Source of the DNA: an uncultured Bacillota bacterium
GTDB taxonomy: Bacteria; Bacillota_I; Bacilli_A; RFN20; CAG-288
Length of the DNA stretch: 34,166 bases
Reading direction: 5' to 3'
Assembly (NCBI GenBank): GCA_949282275.1
Contig: CASDOO010000003.1
Location: 1 to 34,166, forward strand
Positions 3,946 through 24,687 of the stretch are shown in pieces. How positions within the stretch are numbered: the first letter of the stretch is position 1; every line of letters begins with the position of its first letter. A model generated the notes under the pieces. It was given only the letters and a program-made list of their open reading frames with translations, was not told the origin of the DNA and ran no database searches. Position numbers and translations under genes: made by a program.

Positions 3946-6018
3946 ATGAAAAAGAGATCTGTCCTAAGCGTTTTCCTGTTGGCTTCCATGTTCTGTTTTG
4001 CCGGTTGCACGAACACTTCTTCCCAGACAACGCCGCCTTCGAGCACGACCAGTATCGCCGTCACGGGAATTACCATTTCCAGCGCCAATAATGTCCGTGC
4101 CATCAAGGAAGGCGAGACGCTTCAATTGACCGCCACCGTTCTCCCGGAAGGTGCCGATCAAGGTGTCACTTGGTCTTCATCAAGCGCAGCCAATGCGACT
4201 GTTTCCAGCACTGGCCTTGTCACCGCCGTGAAAGAAGGAAACGTCACCATCACGGCAACTTCGGTTTCCGATACGACAAAGAAAGCCACCTTTAGTCTTG
4301 TTATCGAAAAAGGTGAGACTCCCCTTCCCACCGCCATCACTATCACGGCTTCCGAAAAGGAAGTCGAGGTCGGAGGCAATTTGACGCTTTCCGTTTCCGT
4401 CACCCCTGAAAATGCCAAGGATGATGTGACTTGGTCTTCTTCCGATGAAACCAAGGCGACTGTTTCCGCAGCCGGAGTCGTTCGTGGTATCGGCGAGGGC
4501 GAAGTAACCATCACCGCGACTTCCAAGGAAGCCCCGACAGTCTCGGGATCCATTACCCTTACCGTCAAGGCCGCAACAGCCCCGGAACCGACAACGGATT
4601 GGACCAAAGTCTCCTATTCCACCCACGATCAATTCATGAGCGCCGAAAACGATACCGCCCTGAAGATCAAGGGTGTCGTCACTTTCATCAGCCCAGCCTC
4701 GGAAGACAACGAAATCAATTATTACATCCAGAACACGGAAGGCGGATTCTATGTCTATGGTCAAAATAGCGCCACCTTCCCCGTGGAGGTCGGAAAGGTC
4801 TATGAAGTCGGCGGATACAAAGCTCTTTATGCCGGACAGCACGAACTCAAGGACATTGAGCTTTGCAACGAACTTACTGAAACCATAACCGCCGACAAGC
4901 AAGATATCTCCGACAAGAACGTCGCCGATGCGGAAGCCATGAGTACCTATTATGGCAGCTATGTCTCCGTCAGCAACGCCGTCGTCAAGGAAGCCGAGGT
5001 CAACAATACCAAGGCATACAACATCACTTTGACCGTTGGCGACAACGAGCTTGACGTTCGTATCGACCCCGAAATGATGACGGATGCTGAATTCAAGGCA
5101 ATCAACGAAAAGGTCCAGACCGCCATGGTCGGCATCAAGGCTTCCGTCAGCGGTATCATGTCCCTGTATGGCTATGGCAAAGCTTCTCCTCAGCTCATGC
5201 TCATGAAGGCCGCCGATCTTACTTTGGCAGAGCCGGAACCCGAAGATTTGGTCGCCTCTGTTAAGACAGCCCTGACGCTTCCCTTCTCCATCGAAGAAGA
5301 AGTCACTAGCATCAATCTTCCCAAGACAATGGAAGGCTATGACGGCGTCACGATCTCCTATTCTTCCAGTGACGAAACCATTCTCAATGGCAACACCGGT
5401 GCCGTCACGCATGCTGCCAATGACACGATGATAACCCTCACGGCCAGCATCCGCTGCGAAGATGTCACCGATACGAAGGAATTCAATATCAATGTCTTCG
5501 GAACTGCCGTCATCGACAATCTCCAGCTTGTCCATACTTTCGATTGCGAAGACTGCACGGAAGGTGACCATGGCAATGCCGCTGAAAAGAGTAGTTATGC
5601 AGCAGGCACAGTCAAGCTCGGCTCGCCCGAAAAGAAAACATGGATGCTTGATCAAGCTCTTATTGGAAGTCTCGACAATGATTTCTTCAATGGCACGTTC
5701 GGAATTCGTGGCCGCAAGGAAAGCCATATTCGTCTCGAGGAAGACCTCAACGGCATCGTCTTCTTTGACTTCCAGGCTTCCGTCTACGGTTCCGATTCCG
5801 CAGGTTCGACCTTGACCTTCTCCTATCTCCCTGTCGGTGCCACGGGCGAAGACGCCTGGAAAAAGGTCGACTACACCATCGTTCTTACCGAGAAGAAACT
5901 CAACACCGTCCGCGTTGCCCTTCCCGAAGAAGCTTGCCGCATTTCCATCGATGCCACGGCCAGCAACGGCAGCGACCGCTATAACGTCGACGATTTGCAC
6001 CTCTACACCGCGAAGTAA
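3946..6018 (+). CDS. Surface lipoprotein with two BIG2 domains and an OB-fold-like domain
   Basis: A 690-residue predicted lipoprotein: signal peptide with lipobox FAGC (Cys21), a Ser/Thr-rich linker, then two bacterial Ig-like (BIG2) repeats at about 35-120 and 128-208, each with the VTWSSS...ATVS..G.V......G...ITATS pattern. Residues about 213-390 resemble the OB-fold type domain of YhcR-like extracellular nucleases (LKIKGVVTFIS ... YYIQNTEGGFYVYG). A further Ig-like region (about 395-500) and a C-terminal beta-rich domain (about 510-690, starting LVHTFDCEDC) follow. No catalytic nuclease domain is seen, so the OB-like region may simply bind nucleic acid, sugar or protein. A GAAAGGA box precedes the ATG with long spacing. 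The next lipoprotein starts six bases after the stop, so the two are almost certainly made together. Confidence 0.8.
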   Translation: MKKRSVLSVFLLASMFCFAGCTNTSSQTTPPSSTTSIAVTGITISSANNVRAIKEGETLQLTATVLPEGADQGVTWSSSSAANATVSSTGLVTAVKEGNVTITATSVSDTTKKATFSLVIEKGETPLPTAITITASEKEVEVGGNLTLSVSVTPENAKDDVTWSSSDETKATVSAAGVVRGIGEGEVTITATSKEAPTVSGSITLTVKAATAPEPTTDWTKVSYSTHDQFMSAENDTALKIKGVVTFISPASEDNEINYYIQNTEGGFYVYGQNSATFPVEVGKVYEVGGYKALYAGQHELKDIELCNELTETITADKQDISDKNVADAEAMSTYYGSYVSVSNAVVKEAEVNNTKAYNITLTVGDNELDVRIDPEMMTDAEFKAINEKVQTAMVGIKASVSGIMSLYGYGKASPQLMLMKAADLTLAEPEPEDLVASVKTALTLPFSIEEEVTSINLPKTMEGYDGVTISYSSSDETILNGNTGAVTHAANDTMITLTASIRCEDVTDTKEFNINVFGTAVIDNLQLVHTFDCEDCTEGDHGNAAEKSSYAAGTVKLGSPEKKTWMLDQALIGSLDNDFFNGTFGIRGRKESHIRLEEDLNGIVFFDFQASVYGSDSAGSTLTFSYLPVGATGEDAWKKVDYTIVLTEKKLNTVRVALPEEACRISIDATASNGSDRYNVDDLHLYTAK

Positions 6019-6024
6019 TAAATC

Positions 6025-7551
6025 ATGAAGCATAGAATCGCAAAGTGGAGCCTTCTTTGTCTCCTCCCTGTTGCTCTTTGCTCCTGCGCGTCCACTTCTG
6101 CGACGACTGGTCCGTCTGCCACGACGAACGATTCGACGGAGGAGGCTCCCTCCTCCGTCGATATCCTTGCCAACGGAATCAGCGTCGGAGAAATCGACAT
6201 TCTCAAGGACGAGGCCGTATCCCTGACAACAGCCCTTCTTCCCGAAGGACTCGATATCGATTTTCAGTGGACCAGCTCCAATTCCGCCATCGCCAGTGTC
6301 ACTGAAGCAGGAGTCGTCCAAGGCGTGGATGAAGGAACGGCTATCATCACAGTCACCGCAATCGACTATCCCTATGTCACCGATAGCATCTTCGTCAACG
6401 TCTCCCTGCCCATCGAGCAGGTCGGCATCGGCTCTGGTCTCACGGCGGACGACCCGATTTTCAAAGGCAATGCCGGGGATGAGAACATCGAAGTCTATTT
6501 CCTTGAGATGCAACATATCTATTCCGATTCCATCTTCATCAAGAGTGGAAACGTGGAAGTCCTGATTGATTCCGGATATGCCTATGATGGCACCTATATC
6601 GATTCCTTCCTGGACACCCATATGACCGATGACAGACTCGACCTCCTTATGCTCAGCCATTCCGACGAAGACCATGTCAATGGTCTGGAAAACGCACTTC
6701 AGAACGTCGAGAATATTTCCATGATGATTGATTATGGTGGCCGAAATACCGGCAGCGTCGGCCAGATTCGTGAAAAATACATCGAAAAGGGCATGACTTA
6801 TCATTCCGCCTACGATTGCGTCAACTTCATCGATGGCGCAAACGATCGCTATTACCTGACGGAAGACTTGACAATCGATATTCTGGACACGGGAAACTAT
6901 GTGACGCCAGAAGAATCCGGTGCCGGGAACGCCAACAGTGTCGCATGCATCTTTACCTACAAGGAAGACTTCCGCTTCTTCACGGGCGGCGATCTTACCA
7001 CCGGCTCGGAAGCCGACCTTCTTAAGAACGAAGCCCTTCCCCAAGTCACTCTCTTCAAGGCTCACCATCATGGCTCCCATGGTTCCAATAGTCAGGCACT
7101 CCTGGACACGCTCAATCCCAAGGCCGTTGCCATCTCCGCAGCAAGGGCCGATCGCTACGGAACGACCCCCGGGCCTGCTTCCCCGAACAACACCTACAAT
7201 CTCAATGGCGCCTCTGGCCATCCGGCGGCGGAAGCCATCGAAAGAATCTACAAGGCCCCACGGATCAGTCAGAACCTCAACGTTTACTGGAATGCCGTCA
7301 ACGGCACGATGAAGTTCACCAGCGAAGGAGAAGATGACTTTACCTTCCAGGGTTCCGCCACCATGAAGGGCTATTATGATCTCTCCATCACCGATGGACA
7401 ACCAGTCTGGGATGAAACCATCAACGACTTCCAGAACAGGGTCACTGGCGAAGAAAACAAGAAGCTACACGAAACGAAAGTCTTCCAGTTCCGTGACTAC
7501 ATCTCTCTTCTTCCTAAATGGGCGCAGGAGGAATACTTTCCCAAAGCCTAA
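6025..7551 (+). CDS. Lipoprotein with BIG2 domain and ComEC-like metallo-beta-lactamase domain
   Basis: A 508-residue lipoprotein (lipobox LCSC, Cys21) with one BIG2 repeat (about 45-128) and a metallo-beta-lactamase fold domain (about 150-430). Metal-binding motifs are intact: SHSDEDH (residues 211-217, the HxDxDH pattern of ComEC/Rec2-type domains), GGD at 321-323 and AHHHGSHGS at 346-354. In ComEC this domain is linked to degrading one DNA strand during uptake; here it is stand-alone and anchored outside the cell, so a secreted phosphodiesterase or nuclease-like hydrolase is a reasonable inference, not shown. It has no obvious ribosome binding site and begins six bases after the previous stop, suggesting translational coupling. 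A strong terminator follows. Confidence 0.85.
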   Translation: MKHRIAKWSLLCLLPVALCSCASTSATTGPSATTNDSTEEAPSSVDILANGISVGEIDILKDEAVSLTTALLPEGLDIDFQWTSSNSAIASVTEAGVVQGVDEGTAIITVTAIDYPYVTDSIFVNVSLPIEQVGIGSGLTADDPIFKGNAGDENIEVYFLEMQHIYSDSIFIKSGNVEVLIDSGYAYDGTYIDSFLDTHMTDDRLDLLMLSHSDEDHVNGLENALQNVENISMMIDYGGRNTGSVGQIREKYIEKGMTYHSAYDCVNFIDGANDRYYLTEDLTIDILDTGNYVTPEESGAGNANSVACIFTYKEDFRFFTGGDLTTGSEADLLKNEALPQVTLFKAHHHGSHGSNSQALLDTLNPKAVAISAARADRYGTTPGPASPNNTYNLNGASGHPAAEAIERIYKAPRISQNLNVYWNAVNGTMKFTSEGEDDFTFQGSATMKGYYDLSITDGQPVWDETINDFQNRVTGEENKKLHETKVFQFRDYISLLPKWAQEEYFPKA

Positions 7552-16818: not shown

Positions 16819-16844
16819 GACCGGGCTAAGACCCGGTCGTTTTC
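16819..16844. terminator. Bidirectional terminator between the glycosyltransferase and phoR
   Basis: GACCGGG/CCCGGTC stem with a six-base loop, flanked by AAAA on the left and a GTTTT run on the right. It overlaps the last codons of phoR on the other strand, so it can end both convergent transcripts. Confidence 0.75.
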
Positions 16845-18540
16845 ATGTCCTCAGGATGAAAGTCGTCCCTTGCCCGAAGGTGGATCGGACCTCGATCCGA
16901 TAACCGTATTTCTGGCAGATATGCTTGATGATGGCAAGGCCAAGGCCGGTACCTTCCACGTTTTTCAATGTCTTGGAATTGTCGACGCGATAGAACCTTT
17001 CGAAGATACGCGAGAGGTGTTCCTCCTTGATTCCGATTCCCGTGTCGGAAACGGTAATATACCTATCCCTGGCATTCATCTCGATCGAGATCATGCCGTT
17101 AGGCCTGTTGTACTTGATGGCATTGTCGATGAGGTTTGAAAAGATCTTCTCGATATCGCCGCGGTCGGCCTGGACATGGTATTCCTCCAGCTTCAGGTCG
17201 ATCGAGACATTGTTTTCCCGGATCTTAGGTTGCATGTCATCGAGAAGCGATTGAACGAGTGAGGAAATCTCGACGTCCGACTTCTCCTTCCGGATTCCGT
17301 TCTCAAGACGGGAGATCGTCAACATGTCGGAAAGCATCTCCCGCATCTTCTTGGCTTCCTTTATCGTCATCCTGACGGCATCCTGCTTTTCCTCATCTGT
17401 CGACAGCAATCCGTTCTCGAGCATTTCCTGATAGCCAAGGATTGATGTCAGCGGGGTCTTCAGCTCGTGGCTGGCATTGGCGAAGAAGTCCGTCTTGATC
17501 TTGACCAGATTTCTTTCCTCCGTGACGTCCATGACAAGGATAGCCGCACCATTGCGGACCTGGTCGATCCACGGGAAATTCAGGGCCATGACATTGCACT
17601 GATAAGTCCTGCCATTCATCTGGATATCGAAATGGCGACCGTCCTTTCTTTCCTTGAGGCATTTTTCGACATGGGCGGAAAAATCCTCTCCTGCGGAAAG
17701 GATATGGTAATCCTTGTGGAGCGCCTCCTTTTCCGAATAGCCGAACATCTCGCTTGCCTTGCGGTTGAAGAGGACGATCTCGCCATCCCCGGAAACGGCA
17801 AGGAAGGCCTGGCTCATGGAATCCAGGATCATCTTCGTCTTTTCCTTCTCGTTCTGCAGATCCGTGATCTTCCTGTCCAGTTCGGAAGACACCTCATCGA
17901 TGGAATCGGCAATCAAGGCAAGGTCTTCACCCGAACCAAGACGATCGGCAGGATAGCCCGCAAGATAAAGAAGCCGTTCGACCTGGTCCCGCAAGGGCTT
18001 GACCGAGCGATTGTAGTCCCGGTACTTGAAGACGATATAGCCACCCATGAGGATAACCATGACAAGGCAACCATAGATGAGGAAATTCCTCGACACGCTT
18101 GTCGCGACGCTTTCGGCAACGGAGACACGGATGAAATAATCGGGTTTTTCCCTGTCGCGGACGGCATAATAGACCATATTGTAGCCATAGCTGGATTTTC
18201 GGGTGATGAATTTTCCGAGGTTCTCCGGCTGGAGTTCCTCGGCAAGGGCATCGGACTGAAGCATGCCATCGGAATCATAGAGGATCTGATAGTCATCGTG
18301 GCTTTTCGTGATAATGGAAACCCTGTAGTCTCCGGCATCATCGAAGTAGGAGACCGTTTCCTCGCCAGTAGAGGAGTCGTTGCCATCGAAAATCTTTTCC
18401 GCCACCGCAGAGATAGAGCGAATGTTCCCTTCAAGGGAATCCTGGCTGACCAGATAGAAGGTCAGGAAGGCGGAAAGGAAAAGGAGAAGGAGGACAAGGC
18501 AGAAGAGGACCGCCTCGAGGATGACTTTCTTTTTCGTCAT
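16843..18540 (-). CDS. phoR: Phosphate-regulon sensor histidine kinase
   Basis: A 565-residue membrane sensor kinase. Visible parts: helix 1 (about 8-31), an extracytoplasmic domain (32-150), helix 2 (152-172), a HAMP-like linker, a PAS domain (about 235-340), the H-box FFANASHELKTPLTSI with phospho-acceptor His358, and an ATPase domain with NLIDNAIKYN, VSDTGIGI, FERFYRVD and GTGLGLAI. The presence of a large outer domain plus PAS matches the Bacillus PhoR type. It phosphorylates the PhoB-type regulator encoded just upstream; the two genes overlap by ATGA. It is last in the pst-pho cluster and ends at a shared terminator. Confidence 0.92.
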   Translation of the reverse strand: MTKKKVILEAVLFCLVLLLLFLSAFLTFYLVSQDSLEGNIRSISAVAEKIFDGNDSSTGEETVSYFDDAGDYRVSIITKSHDDYQILYDSDGMLQSDALAEELQPENLGKFITRKSSYGYNMVYYAVRDREKPDYFIRVSVAESVATSVSRNFLIYGCLVMVILMGGYIVFKYRDYNRSVKPLRDQVERLLYLAGYPADRLGSGEDLALIADSIDEVSSELDRKITDLQNEKEKTKMILDSMSQAFLAVSGDGEIVLFNRKASEMFGYSEKEALHKDYHILSAGEDFSAHVEKCLKERKDGRHFDIQMNGRTYQCNVMALNFPWIDQVRNGAAILVMDVTEERNLVKIKTDFFANASHELKTPLTSILGYQEMLENGLLSTDEEKQDAVRMTIKEAKKMREMLSDMLTISRLENGIRKEKSDVEISSLVQSLLDDMQPKIRENNVSIDLKLEEYHVQADRGDIEKIFSNLIDNAIKYNRPNGMISIEMNARDRYITVSDTGIGIKEEHLSRIFERFYRVDNSKTLKNVEGTGLGLAIIKHICQKYGYRIEVRSTFGQGTTFILRT

Positions 18541-19205
18541 CGGGTGTATCGATAGCCGATTCCGTAGACAGAGACGATATGCTTTCCCTGTCCTTCCAGC
18601 TTCGTGCGAAGGGACTTGATATGAACATCGATCGTCCGGCTCTCATAGCTGTCCTGCTCGCCCCAGAGAACATTGAGAAGATAATCACGTGAGACAACCT
18701 TGTCCGAAGCCTTCATCAGCTCATAAAGGATGGTGAATTCGGCATTGGTCAGGGAAACATCTTTTCCTTCGACGGAGCAGGTTCTTCTATCGGCATCGAT
18801 AAGGACCTGATCGATGAGAATGCGGGATTGCTTCTTGCTTCGACGGAACTTGGCATTCACCCTTGAGATGAGTTCCAGGATATCGAACGGCTTTTCGAGA
18901 TAGTCATCGGCACCAAGATCCAGACCATCGACCTTGTCGACGATCTGGCTTTTTGCGGAAACGATCATGATCTCGACATCGTCGTTTTCCTTGTCGGCGC
19001 GAATCTTCCGGATGATATCGAAGCCATCGATATCGGGGAGCATGAGATCCAGGAGGACAAGATCCGGACGGCACTTGGAAAAAGCATCCAGAAAGGAAAG
19101 GCCATCCTGAAAGGAGACGACTTCGTATCCTTGCTTCCGGAGCGTGATGGCGATAATCTTGCTGATATTGACATCATCCTCGACAGAATAGATCAGGTTT
19201 GCCAT
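18537..19205 (-). CDS. phoB: PhoB/PhoP-type response regulator
   Basis: A 222-residue OmpR/PhoB-class regulator: receiver domain with acidic pocket (Glu9, Asp10, Asp11), phospho-acceptor Asp53 in LLDLMLPDIDG and conserved Lys105 (EKPFD); then a winged-helix DNA-binding domain (about 130-222) with the TNAEFTILYELM, RTIDVHIKSLRTKL and VYGIGYRY signatures. Phosphorylated by PhoR, it is expected to activate the pst genes. The name could equally be phoP in Gram-positive usage. It lies 16 bases after phoU and overlaps phoR. Confidence 0.92.
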   Translation of the reverse strand: MANLIYSVEDDVNISKIIAITLRKQGYEVVSFQDGLSFLDAFSKCRPDLVLLDLMLPDIDGFDIIRKIRADKENDDVEIMIVSAKSQIVDKVDGLDLGADDYLEKPFDILELISRVNAKFRRSKKQSRILIDQVLIDADRRTCSVEGKDVSLTNAEFTILYELMKASDKVVSRDYLLNVLWGEQDSYESRTIDVHIKSLRTKLEGQGKHIVSVYGIGYRYTR

Positions 19206-19221: not shown

Positions 19222-19875
19222 TTAGATGATCACGTGATCCTTATGATAGCCGTTGACCATGAAGACGACCCATTCGGCAATGTTCGTGGCGTGGTCGGCG
19301 ATTCTTTCGAGATACTTGAGAATCATGGTCTGATAGACCGTGTTCTCGGAGGAAATCTTCTTTTCCTCGTTCAATTTGACGATGATCTTGACGATTTCCC
19401 AGAACTTGTTGTCGACATAGTCGTCCCGATCCAGGATATCCTGTGCCTGATCGACGTTCATCTTGACACAGCAATACAGGGAATCCTGAACCATCTTCAG
19501 GACAACGGATGCAAGTTCTTCCATGCCATCGACAACCTTTATCGCATCGGGAAGTTTCTTGATAGAATCCGTCGTTCCTTTGATGTCGTAAGCCTGGTCT
19601 CCGATACGCTCGACATCCTCGACCAGTCGGAAATTGCCGATGATGTCCCTCAAATCGCCGGAGTAGACCTTCTCGCGTAGAAGAATCTGCATGCAGAGGG
19701 ATTCCGTCTCGCGCTCATAGAGATTGATCTTGTCATCATCGATGACAAACTTCTCGTCGTATCCTCTGTTCTTATCCAGATAATAGGAAAAAGCCTGCTT
19801 GCAAGAGTCGATGACAGCATCGAGCATCTCGTAGACCTTCGAATCGATGTGCTGGATTTCCTTTTCGATCTGCAT
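19222..19875 (-). CDS. phoU: Phosphate signalling and transport regulator PhoU
   Basis: A 217-residue all-helical PhoU protein with the two characteristic metal-binding repeats: EDVERIGDQAYDI in the first half and LERIADHATNIAEWV near the end. PhoU links the Pst transporter to the PhoR kinase and restrains phosphate uptake when phosphate is plentiful. Length matches the family (about 215-240). It starts 20 bases after pstB with a GGAGG-like site, inside the pst-pho operon. Confidence 0.95.
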   Translation of the reverse strand: MQIEKEIQHIDSKVYEMLDAVIDSCKQAFSYYLDKNRGYDEKFVIDDDKINLYERETESLCMQILLREKVYSGDLRDIIGNFRLVEDVERIGDQAYDIKGTTDSIKKLPDAIKVVDGMEELASVVLKMVQDSLYCCVKMNVDQAQDILDRDDYVDNKFWEIVKIIVKLNEEKKISSENTVYQTMILKYLERIADHATNIAEWVVFMVNGYHKDHVII

Positions 19876-19895: not shown

Positions 19896-20768
19896 TCAGC
19901 TAAAGCGTCCCGTGATGTAGTCATTGCTCCGCTTCTCCTTCGGATGGGAGAAGAAGGCATCGGTGGCGTTGAATTCGACAAGTTCCCCGAGCATGAAGAA
20001 GGCCGTATAGTCGCTGACGCGGGTGGCCTGCTGCATGTTATGCGTGACGATAACAATAGTATACTTCTCTTTCAGTTTCTGGATAAGGTCCTCGATCTTC
20101 TTCGTGGCAATGGGATCGAGCGCGGAAGTCGGCTCGTCCATAAGGATGACGTCCGGACGCATGGCAACACAACGGGCAATGCAGAGTCTCTGCTGCTGAC
20201 CGCCGGAAAGGGCCATGCCGGATTCCTTGAGACGATCCTTGACCTCGTCATAGAGGGCGCCTTCCTTGAGGGAATCCTCGACAAGCTGACGCAGATACTT
20301 GCGATCCTTGATTCCCTGGCAGCGCGGACCATAGGTGATATTGTCGCGAATGGACATCGGAAAGGGATTGGGCTGCTGGAAGACCATGCCGACGCGGGAA
20401 CGAAGAAGAATGGGGTTGATCGTATGGATATCCGTGCCATTGAAGAGCAGCTCGCCCGTCACGCGACAGCCATCGATGAGGTCATTCATTCTATTGAAGC
20501 ATCTCAGGAAGGTGGACTTTCCGCATCCGGAAGGCCCGATGAAGGCGGTGACCTTGTTCTTGTAGATCTTGATGTTGATGTCCTTCAGGGCCTGCTTGTC
20601 ATCGTAGAAAAGATTCAGGTTCCTTGCCTCGAAAACGACATTGTCCTTCGTTTCCTCGGCCTCTTCGCGTCTTGCCGCGGCAGGGGCTCCCAAGGCCGGT
20701 TCCTGTGACGGCGTCCTGGCCTCCAGCTCCTCGAGGGCTTGGATGGTCTGTTCCTCTTCAAGGGTCAT
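19896..20768 (-). CDS. pstB: Phosphate ABC transporter ATP-binding protein
   Basis: A 290-residue ABC ATPase powering phosphate import. Walker [10 protein letters not shown] is at 78-86, the Q-loop FQQPNPFP matches the PstB-specific form, the signature LSGGQQQRL is near 190, Walker [13 protein letters not shown] follows, and the switch histidine lies in VTHNMQQA. It carries an extra N-terminal tail of about 45 residues, rich in Glu and Ala, not usual for PstB (about 250). The ATG overlaps the pstA stop (ATGA), so the two are coupled. Confidence 0.97.
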
Positions 20769-22408
20769 TTTTCTTGTTCTCCTTCCATGGCGGGCCTGTT
20801 CTTCCCCATGATGGAATCCCGCACTTCCTTCCGGTCAAGATACTTCTGCTTTGTCTTCTCGTAGAACTTCCGATACCACGGCTTGGGTCCGACGGGACGG
20901 AACTTGTCGAGCTTGGAGGCGATGAGCTTGACGGCGATATTGAGGATAAGGACGACAAGGAGGATGAGAATGGCGGCAGCGGCGGCGGCCTTGTAGTTCG
21001 GGGCCTCGCCCGACATGACCCTCCAGATGTAGACGGCAAGGGAGGCAGCAGTGTTCGTCGGGGTCGGGGCATCGGAGATGAAGGTGCCCGTTGCAAAGAC
21101 CAAGGCTGCGGATTCGCCAATGATTCTTCCAATGGCAAGGAGCGTACCCGTCAGGATTCCCGGCACGGAATTTGGAATGATGATGCGGAAGACAGTCTGC
21201 GTCTCGGAAGCTCCCAAGGCCAGGGAAGCATTCTTGAGACTCTTCGGAATGGCGGCGATGGCTTCCTGGGTTGCCTTCATGATGGTTGGAAGGACCATGC
21301 AGGCCAAGGTCGCAGAACCCGAGAGAATATTTCCGGTCGCACCGGTCCAGTTGAATATCGGAATGAAGATGATGGCACCGGCAAGACCGAAGATGATGGA
21401 TGGTACGCCGGATATCATGTCGATGAGGGATTGTATCAGCTTCGTTATTGTACCGCGCTTGGCGTAGTAGCTGAGATAGACCGCGCCGCCGATTCCAAGC
21501 GGCAGGGCAATGATGAGCGCAAAGAGAATCATATAGAGGGTGGCAATAAGCGGACCGCGAATGCCGAAACCGCCGGAAGCGAAGAAACCGGAGCTGATGG
21601 AAACCATCCTGTCCATGTTTGTCGCGACGGCCTCAGCTCCGTTTCTTGCCGCAGCAGTAACGCTTCTCCCGTTTTCATCTTTGCCAATGATCATCGTCAC
21701 GGAATAACCGTTGGCAAGATGGAAGGGCTGGTCGGAAAGATCCTGAACGTTGGAGATGGGGGATTCGACATCGACATAGGTGATCGTGACGTCGCTCGTG
21801 CCGTCCGTCTTGACGGTATCGGCGAAGACGATGCCCCACCTCTGGGAGAAGTATTCCCCTTCGTCAAGCTGCGGCGCTTGGAAGGTTGTATTCGGATCGA
21901 GGGAGAAATCATCGGGTGTACGGACATTATAATTGATGGAATTGTAGTTCCCGGTGACAAATCCCCAAGAGAAGGTGTCCCAACCTGTGGAAAGGCAATA
22001 GACGACGATTCCGATAAGGACAAGCAAGGAAAGGCAGGAGAGAATGTAGGTTAAGGAAGAGCGCAGGACATCGAAGAAAGAACGAATCTTGAACTTCTTT
22101 TCCCTTTCAGCATTGATTTTCTTGATGGACTCGATTTTCTCCTTGGCGGTATAGGTGAAGTCTTCCTCCACGGTATCGGACAATTCGCTCTCTTCGGGAA
22201 CGGGAATCATGCCGACACCGATATTGGAACGGGAGAACGGTTCCTTGACCTTGGCTAGGCTCGTTTGGAACAAGTCAGCGGCCTTCTTTGCCCAAGTCGG
22301 AACCTTCTTTCCTTCCTTGGATGTACCATCTTTTCCGTTTGTCGTCACCGCGTCCTCGGAAGGAGTGGCCATGGATTCCAATTCTTCTTTTTTCTTATTG
22401 TCTTCCAT
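20765..22408 (-). CDS. pstA: Phosphate ABC transporter permease PstA, enlarged
   Basis: A 547-residue protein whose C-terminal 290 residues are a typical PstA permease ([20 protein letters not shown], the EAA-like loop [22 protein letters not shown], and [11 protein letters not shown]). Usual PstA length is about 280-300. Here there is a charged cytoplasmic N-terminal extension of about 110 residues, and between the first helix (about 114-138) and the permease core an extracytoplasmic domain of about 110 residues (from [10 protein letters not shown] to [10 protein letters not shown]). With PstC it forms the channel. The first codons overlap the end of pstC by 14 bases. Confidence 0.93.
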
Positions 22409-23492
22409 TTTCGATAGCCTCCTTCCTCTTTAATGACTTTATGATGCCCTCGGGGAAGAAACGACGATAGAGACGAGCAAACAGGGCGTTGTTTGGCTGT
22501 CCGACAGATTTGGCATAGATGGAATCCTTGACGGAATTGAGAACGACATCGACTAGAAGGATCACAATCATCAACAGGATACCGGCAGAGAAACGGATAT
22601 CGTATCCCATCGTCCCCGGCGTGGCCTCACCGATTCCCATAAGCATCTGCGTGGTCAGCGTCGCGGAAGTATCGAGAGGATTCCATGTCGGGCCACCGGT
22701 CGCATTTCCGATGACCATCTGCATGGCCGTAGCTTCGCCAAGGGCACGTCCGATGCCAAGAATGATGCCGGCGAAGATACCGGATTGGGCATCTTTGATA
22801 ACAATCTTAAAGTCGGTCTGGCTCTTGGATGCGCCAAGCGCCAAGGAAGCATTGATAAGGGATGGATTAACGGCCTTCATCGCCGTTATCGACATCGACG
22901 TCATCGTCGGAATGGACATCATGGCAAGAACCAGAACACCAGAAAGCATCGAGGATCCGCCTGCCGTCTGGTATCCAACAGCATTGGCAAAAGCCTTGAC
23001 GATACCCGTGATGATGCCCATGCCGAACAAACCGAAAATGACGGAAGGGATAGAGGCAAGAAGTTCGATACCGGTCTGGAACACGGCAGCAATAGGCTTG
23101 GGAGCGACCCTCGTGATCAAAAGGGCGGTAAAGATCGAGACAGGAATGGAAATAAGGAGGGACAAAACAGTGACATACAGCGTGTTGACGACAAGGTAGC
23201 CGGCACCATGATTGAATTCCCCGCCGTTCCATGTCGTGTTCGTAAAGAAACTTCCGAAATCCTGTTTTCCGACACCATCGCCCACGGCAGAGTGATATTC
23301 CGTAACGAATGGTTGTATTCCCTTGACGAGAATGAAGACAACAACAAAGATGATGATACTGGCACATAGAAGGGCTAGGAAAAAGAAGACTCCCTTGACA
23401 ACAAGATCGACCTTCTTTTTCGTCTCCGCCTGACGCGTGAGGTTTACGGTAATGTTGGTGGGTATGGTCTCCGTTTTCTGTTCCGGTTCCAT
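22395..23492 (-). CDS. pstC: Phosphate ABC transporter permease PstC
   Basis: A 365-residue inner-membrane permease with six predicted helices; it pairs with PstA. Family marks are the long first helix (VFFFLALLCASIIIFVVVFI), the IPSVIFGLFGMG segment, the EAA-like loop [19 protein letters not shown] and GRALGEATAMQMVIGN. It is slightly longer than typical (about 300-320) because of a basic N-terminus and C-terminal tail. The ATG at 23492 has AAGGAG seven bases upstream. A perfect hairpin separates it from pstS. Confidence 0.95.
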   Translation of the reverse strand: MEPEQKTETIPTNITVNLTRQAETKKKVDLVVKGVFFFLALLCASIIIFVVVFILVKGIQPFVTEYHSAVGDGVGKQDFGSFFTNTTWNGGEFNHGAGYLVVNTLYVTVLSLLISIPVSIFTALLITRVAPKPIAAVFQTGIELLASIPSVIFGLFGMGIITGIVKAFANAVGYQTAGGSSMLSGVLVLAMMSIPTMTSMSITAMKAVNPSLINASLALGASKSQTDFKIVIKDAQSGIFAGIILGIGRALGEATAMQMVIGNATGGPTWNPLDTSATLTTQMLMGIGEATPGTMGYDIRFSAGILLMIVILLVDVVLNSVKDSIYAKSVGQPNNALFARLYRRFFPEGIIKSLKRKEAIENGRQ

Positions 23493-23574: not shown

Positions 23575-24687
23575 TCAGGCAATGAGCTGGCTCCACTTGG
23601 TGATGGGCGTCTCATCGGAATAATCCTCACCGAAGTTTTCTTCGGAAGTTGCCTTGTCCTTGATGGCGTCCGGACGGACATAGATGCCGCGGAGCTGTTC
23701 GATGGTGATATTGGTCAGAGGGTTGGCACTGTTGACGATCGGGCAGATGGCATCCTTGCAGAGTTCGACCATGGTGTAGCTCTTGGACGTGGCATCGGCC
23801 TGCTCGGTGGCATTGAAGTCACGGGAAGCGAATCCGATATCGCCGGTTCCATCGTTGAGCTTCTTGAAGGCATCGCCGGAACCCGTATGGTTATGGGCAG
23901 CTTCAGGAGCATTCACAAAGTAGGTCGTCCATGTTTCGGAAAGCGCCGTGGACATGCCTTCGACAGAGGTAGAACCAACGAAGTTCACCTGAATGTTGGA
24001 ATAATCGCCGGCAATCTTGCCATTCTCGACGCCAAGAGTATTGACCCAGTCAAGGCTGGTATCCTTGAGCATGTCGGAGAAGGACTTGCCGGAAGCGAAG
24101 TCATCTTCGGGATCAACGATTCCGCCTTCGGCATCGATGATGATGGCCTGACCTTCGATGGAGGAAGCAAAGGCGACATAGGACTCGATAAGGGCAATCT
24201 TGGTTGCGTTACGCGTGCTGTCGACACTTGTGGCATAGACCATGTTGAAGTTACGCTGGAGAGAGTAGGTGCCATCGACGACCGTTTCCGAAGAAGCGGT
24301 GACGCCGTCGACGGTAAGGGCCTTGATGCCGTCCTGGGTCGGGACGCTGGCAAGGGAGCTGTATCCGATACCATATTCGTCCTGGGCAACCTTCGTCATC
24401 ATGTCGCCGTTTCCGGTTGTCTGGGCAACGCTGGCAGTGAGAAGCGTGTCGTCGCTCTTGGCATCTTCGATACCGATCTTCGTGCAGAAGCCATCGCGGG
24501 TTCCGGAAGTGGTGTCTCTGGTATAGGGCTTGATGTCCTTGCTCTTATCGAAATCCGTGGCAACAGGAGTCGTATTTCCGGTGGCACCACCCGTAGGAGT
24601 CGTGGCGGTGTTGCTGGAAGTTCCGTTGCAGCTGGCAAGCAAAGAGAGGGAGGCAAGTACGATCGTGCTCATAAGGATCTTTTTCAT
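23575..24687 (-). CDS. pstS: Phosphate-binding lipoprotein PstS with circularly permuted halves
   Basis: A 370-residue lipoprotein (lipobox LASC, Cys20; Ser/Thr/Gly-rich linker to about 45). The usual PstS order is GSTSV, GSGDA, DIGFASR, NPLTxxxxxQLRxIY, W-x-x-L, then IxPYTRxxxSGTR, GYxSL, DGVxxxxETVxxGxY, EGQ. Here IKPYTRDTTSGTRDGF (52-67), GIGYSSL (106-112), DGVTASSETVVDGTY (127-141) and SIEGQAIIIDAEGGIV (176-191) come first. After a linker (about 192-231) follow FVGSTSVEGM (236-245), GSGDAF (269-274), DIGFASRDF (283-291), NPLTNITIEQLRGIY (322-336) and a final ITKWSQL. All phosphate-contact motifs are kept, only their order is swapped. The start is ATG 24687 with GAGGT upstream; the frame is uninterrupted and no extra half lies beyond either end. 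It heads the pst operon. Confidence 0.9.
   Translation of the reverse strand: MKKILMSTIVLASLSLLASCNGTSSNTATTPTGGATGNTTPVATDFDKSKDIKPYTRDTTSGTRDGFCTKIGIEDAKSDDTLLTASVAQTTGNGDMMTKVAQDEYGIGYSSLASVPTQDGIKALTVDGVTASSETVVDGTYSLQRNFNMVYATSVDSTRNATKIALIESYVAFASSIEGQAIIIDAEGGIVDPEDDFASGKSFSDMLKDTSLDWVNTLGVENGKIAGDYSNIQVNFVGSTSVEGMSTALSETWTTYFVNAPEAAHNHTGSGDAFKKLNDGTGDIGFASRDFNATEQADATSKSYTMVELCKDAICPIVNSANPLTNITIEQLRGIYVRPDAIKDKATSEENFGEDYSDETPITKWSQLIA

Follow-up and report, generated by a model that had tools for sequence, protein, structure and literature searches.

A circularly permuted PstS phosphate-binding lipoprotein and apparent returns to canonical order among its relatives in Bacilli

The pstS gene in a 34,166-nucleotide stretch of DNA from an uncultured Bacillota bacterium (the window) encodes a phosphate-binding protein whose two halves stand in swapped order. 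Judged from its sequence, the protein is a natural and intact circular permutation, which is old and was inherited from a permuted PstS lineage widespread in Bacilli. What appears to be new here is that canonical order was regained at least twice, once in the genus to which the window belongs. We hold with high confidence the explanation as a whole, in which a permuted receptor of the PstSCAB importer inherited its order within a family where fusion and trimming recurred, returns to canonical included. That permutation of PstS in Bacilli is ongoing and reversible, by fusion and trimming in place, with at least two returns to canonical order, about two shifts to a third cut point, sequence scars and persisting fused intermediates, we regard as likely.

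The features of the gene and its neighbors are given in Table 1. The reading frame runs on the minus strand from an ATG at 24687 to a stop codon at 23577-23575 with no frame break. In phmmer searches against PDB chains, canonical PstS 4q8r matched in two significant blocks, its residues 123-237 to query residues 55-183 and its residues 5-104 to query residues 233-337, and the halves of 4gd5 were likewise swapped relative to the window protein. An HMM built from 15 canonical PstS matched the native protein with HMM positions 117-237 first and 5-104 second, whereas the re-permuted protein (residues 232-370 followed by 46-191) matched in order, 5-104 then 107-237, with 139 bits. Homology to PstS therefore covers both halves, but canonical half order is lacking, and co-linear homology to canonical PstS was not seen. 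Both searches agree with a preliminary description of this gene, which had placed the C-half motifs ahead of the N-half motifs in an intact lipoprotein. Because each half is significant and the same order is found in more than 100 genomes, a chance origin of the swapped order is excluded. Both phmmer and Foldseek match 4h1x co-linearly, which shows the chain to begin ahead of the SGTR block and to end past W-x-x-L.

Table 1. Features of the window's pst-pho region; residue numbers are those of the permuted PstS.
Feature	Position in window	Strand	Basis
PhoR-like PAS histidine kinase	16843..18540	-	HisKA/HATPase/PAS
PhoB-like response regulator	18537..19205	-	Response_reg + Trans_reg_C
PhoU	19222..19875	-	two PhoU domains
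PstB ATPase	19896..20768	-	ABC_tran
PstA permease (547 aa, extended at the N-terminus and in a loop)	20765..22408	-	BPD_transp_1 at 305-501; lengths
PstC permease	22395..23492	-	BPD_transp_1; synteny
Permuted PstS lipoprotein gene, 370 aa	23575..24687	-	open frame; both PstS halves, swapped order
Former PstS N-terminal half, residues 231-370: GSTSV, GSGDAF, DIGFASR, NPLT..QLRGIY, final WSQLIA	23578..23997	-	Pfam PF12849 234-367, phmmer, HMM
Linker, residues 193-230: old C-terminus to old N-terminus	23998..24111	-	counterparts in other permuted PstS
Former PstS C-terminal half, residues 50-192: YTRDTTSGTR, GIGYSSL, DGV...GTY, EGQ..GGI	24112..24540	-	phmmer + HMM
New N-terminal segment, residues 21-49: low-complexity spacer, then FDKSKDI	24541..24627	-	alignment
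Signal peptide + lipobox, residues 1-20, LLASC	24628..24687	-	Cys20 invariant in 27 permuted relatives (alignment)

Ten residues (R57, S61, G62, T63, G238, S239, S241, G269, S270 and S288) are invariant in 27 permuted proteins. These lie in the SGT-R, GSTS, GSG and SR elements, which we take to be the phosphate-pocket motifs, and the earlier claim that every phosphate-contact motif is kept holds to this extent. Most permuted relatives share an F[DN] box; 130 of 188 entries for permuted ORFs have one ahead of the SGTR block. In one permuted PstS (L063, 4619-5647, minus strand) the SGTR block reads TSSTIRD and the SGT phosphate motif is lost. The 38-residue linker of the window protein has its counterpart in the C-terminal tail of canonical PstS from the same genus (DWVNTLGV vs DWAVTLGL).

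The gene is the first in the operon pstS-pstC-pstA-pstB-phoU-phoB-phoR. As described before, this pst operon is complete, with PstC, PstA, PstB and PhoU all encoded, and pstS is its sole substrate-binding gene; the flanks of pstS hold no spare PstS half (tblastn across the window, best off-target E 0.03). A second PstS copy elsewhere in the genome was considered and rejected, as the window's pstS is the only PBP_like_2 gene in this 84%-complete draft of 39 contigs. The N-terminal region of the window's PstA is long, as is the stretch ahead of the permease domain; the median length of PstA is 412 aa in the permuted clade vs 287 in canonical outgroups. PstA length was rejected as a cause of the permutation, since PstA is short in one permuted group and has stayed long in genomes whose PstS returned to canonical order.

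PstS is a type II binding protein. The AlphaFold2 model of the window protein (pLDDT 87.8, pTM 0.79, from a shallow alignment of 27 rows) found 4h1x as its best Foldseek match in the PDB (E 7e-22, TM-target 0.84). No canonical PstS was among its best 50 matches, where 4H1X was the sole PstS, as expected if a structure alignment that keeps to chain order is blind to permutations. The model of a canonical PstS from the same genus (pLDDT 89.6) matched many canonical PstS, including 1twy, 4gd5, 4q8r, 4exl and E. coli PstS. The protein is predicted to keep the type II fold, with both lobes and the phosphate pocket as in PstS; the old mid-protein connector, ahead of YTRDTTSGTR, has become the start of the chain, and the linker joins the old C- and N-termini. 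A suggested consequence is that the lipid anchor would have moved, sitting at the former connector in place of the former N-terminus. Motifs, operon and fold together suggest that the permuted protein is probably functional, as the membrane-anchored phosphate receptor of the PstSCAB importer.

By count from the tables, a permuted co-linear PstS is carried by about 50 of the 279 genomes in the order and by 81 of the 392 in the phylum sample. In the scan of named genomes the window protein alone gave no matches as query, and an alignment-based scan found carriers, among them the isolate Acholeplasma granularum ATCC 19168, Izemoplasmatales and Candidatus Borkfalkia. One permuted PstS lies on a contig titled as a Staphylococcus epidermidis MAG (L133); this contig matches L064 (G276, of the window's order) in its length of 6607 bases and in its ORF, which suggests a mislabelled bin.

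Permutation by duplication predicts fused tandem intermediates (PMC3320104), and the fused PstS genes found among relatives are such intermediates. When the order of three segment profiles was read along every ORF retrieved, in-frame doubles of the permuted protein, 593-678 aa long (L090, L092, L097, L171, L190 and L191), and one triple of 910 aa (L091) came to light. The units are 81-98% identical to each other, the genes checked are the first of a pst operon, and the fusions occur mainly in Acholeplasmatales, scattered over about four places on the tree; the scans of the genus and family of the window showed none. The triple fusion, a lipoprotein gene at 4011-6740 on the plus strand in an Acholeplasmataceae bin, has units 82-89% identical and is the first gene of a pst operon. 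Elsewhere, two adjacent but separate permuted PstS genes (L193, 3997-4902 and 5011-6015, minus strand) may be a pre-fusion duplicate. A fused double at 4420-6229 on the minus strand (L249) is broken in its first unit by an apparent frameshift; it was considered as a decaying, half-trimmed intermediate, but the frameshift may be a sequencing error.

Tandem fusion followed by trimming is the likely mechanism of permutation, with the duplication step inferred in each individual case. The preliminary description had proposed a tandem duplication followed by loss of the outer halves. As a route this stands, given the C-N-C-N and C-N-C-N-C-N genes in relatives; as an event in the history of this particular gene it does not, the order being inherited and already present in 4H1X. 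Fusion and trimming would have run more than once, giving at least two returns to canonical order and about two shifts to a third cut point.

Four genus-mates of the window (G001, G004, G010 and G012) have a PstS in canonical order. The halves of these proteins are about 50-59% identical to those of the window protein and are the closest relatives of its halves. In a PstS tree built from re-permuted sequences, the permuted clade had support of 100/99, and the window, G018 and the four canonical genus-mates formed a group (100/100) nested inside it. A second nested canonical set consisted of L066, L134 and L136. AU tests rejected all canonical rows as one clade (p 8e-6), the genus-mates with the canonical outgroup (p 9e-4), L066/L134/L136 with the canonical outgroup (p 1.6e-3) and the seven nested canonical rows as one clade (p 5e-9). 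The PstC-PstA-PstB tree, which is independent of the permuted gene, gave the same nesting. If reversal is disallowed on that tree, 16 independent permutations are needed, or 9 with weak branches collapsed, vs one gain and two reversals.

The proteins that returned to canonical order also carry marks of a permuted past. In true canonical PstS the chain ends no more than about 7 residues past the glycine that follows the last helix, and in nearly all of them the halves are joined by an NWxxxGG connector. The re-canonicalised proteins have 22-25 extra C-terminal residues that resemble the permuted linker, and the GG connector is absent from them. Against a profile of 117 permuted linkers, the tails of L066, L134, L136 and L252 beat 500 of 500 shuffles; those of the genus-mates scored more weakly, with 0 to 21 of 500 shuffles as good, and by eye their match is clear mainly to the linkers of the window and G018. 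L134 and L136 retain between their halves a vestigial FDTSK, which is the mature N-terminus of permuted lipoproteins. The tails, the vestigial N-terminus and the loss of NWxxxGG support the direction from permuted to canonical. Normal half order in relatives is real in four genus-mates, but on the evidence of the trees and scars it is derived, by re-permutation from a permuted PstS.

The opposite direction is unlikely, namely that the window and G018 permuted independently and recently while their canonical genus-mates keep the ancestral order. It is compatible with the tree of the N-half alone, where the six-row clade of the window lies closer to the canonical outgroup and canonical ancestry costs no extra steps, and the window and G018 do form a pair (96/73). 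However, the concatenated PstS tree with its AU test of the genus-mates and the transporter tree both contradict it, and it needs at least 9-16 identical separate cuts. The genus-mates, moreover, lack NWxxxGG and carry a tail foreign to true canonical PstS, and the window protein retains the FDxSK N-terminus typical of permuted PstS. Gene replacement is frequent in transporter operons, and the genus-mates might instead have acquired a canonical PstS by horizontal transfer. We consider this very improbable, as their halves are nearest to those of the window (52-58% identical) and nested in the permuted clade, with PstC, PstA and PstB concordant.

Separate half-genes re-fused in the other order, a general alternative to tandem duplication (PMC3320104), would also swap the halves. 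This route is improbable here, since separate half-genes were not found among relatives, fused tandem copies are common, and linkers and scars are as expected from trimmed tandem fusions. The sole apparent split (L194) is an interruption by TGA, which would read as Trp in Mollicutes. Although the genome is an incomplete draft in many contigs, mis-assembly or chimeric annotation of a metagenome bin is refuted as a source of the swapped order by the same order in independent assemblies of more than 100 genomes, the A. granularum isolate included, and in a crystal structure. Re-permutation from a permuted ancestor, by fusion and trimming, remains our preferred reading.

A third arrangement was seen in L017 (G015) and L188 (G486), where the protein starts inside the old C-half, keeps the permuted linker and ends past the QR-FN block. 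The trees place the two apart, and a single clade for both is rejected by the AU test (p 0.002). The neighbors of L188 on the tree are A. granularum, with which it groups, and the fused double L187, whose genome shares a genus code with G486; L192 is a further fused double. Placing L017 with the canonical outgroup gave p 0.08, which is not significant; the case for L017 comes from the PstS and PstC-PstA-PstB trees and the retained linker. This arrangement arose about twice.

A natural circular permutation is as a rule known as one ancient event, deduced from its two end states. In PstS the start, fused intermediates, other cut points and returns are all present in one family kept in its operon, so that close natural homologues allow a direct test of permutation by duplication and of how chain order and anchor position affect a binding protein. 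The part worth following is this repeated, reversible permutation with living intermediates, as the permuted order itself is inherited. The gene also carries a warning for annotation: Pfam detects only one half, and the TIGR02136 score of 109 bits falls short of the cut-off, 206.6.

Compared with canonical PstS (PF12849, TIGR02136; 4gd5, 1twy and E. coli PstS), the window protein shares homologous halves, phosphate motifs and a place at the head of pstSCAB-phoU, but its half order is swapped. The swapped topology is not unique to the window, as 4H1X (PstS2, SP_2084 of S. pneumoniae TIGR4), also a natural protein, has the same permuted order and is co-linear with the window protein in sequence and fold; the two are 23% identical and the linker of 4H1X is shorter. 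On the PstS tree 4H1X falls with a separate permuted branch, and a single origin of both permutations is not rejected (AU test, p 0.54). In the open-licence PMC literature, where absence is weak evidence, we found no publication on permuted PstS, the 4H1X permutation or permuted phosphate-binding proteins. TpMglB-2 (Tp0684) of Treponema pallidum, a 'Type Ic' permuted sugar-binding protein, is likewise a naturally permuted, membrane-tethered substrate-binding protein, and its authors suggest tethering as a reason for the permutation (PMC4990184). Unlike the window protein it has a type I fold and binds glucose, the permuted part is a few strands of one lobe, and the available text of that report describes no reversals or tandem intermediates (PMC4990184). 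With swaposin and the DNA methyltransferases, cases of permutation by duplication (PMC3320104), PstS shares duplication, fusion and trimming of the outer halves; beyond these cases, a single operon-anchored family here contains the fused intermediates together with a third arrangement and what appear to be returns to the original order.
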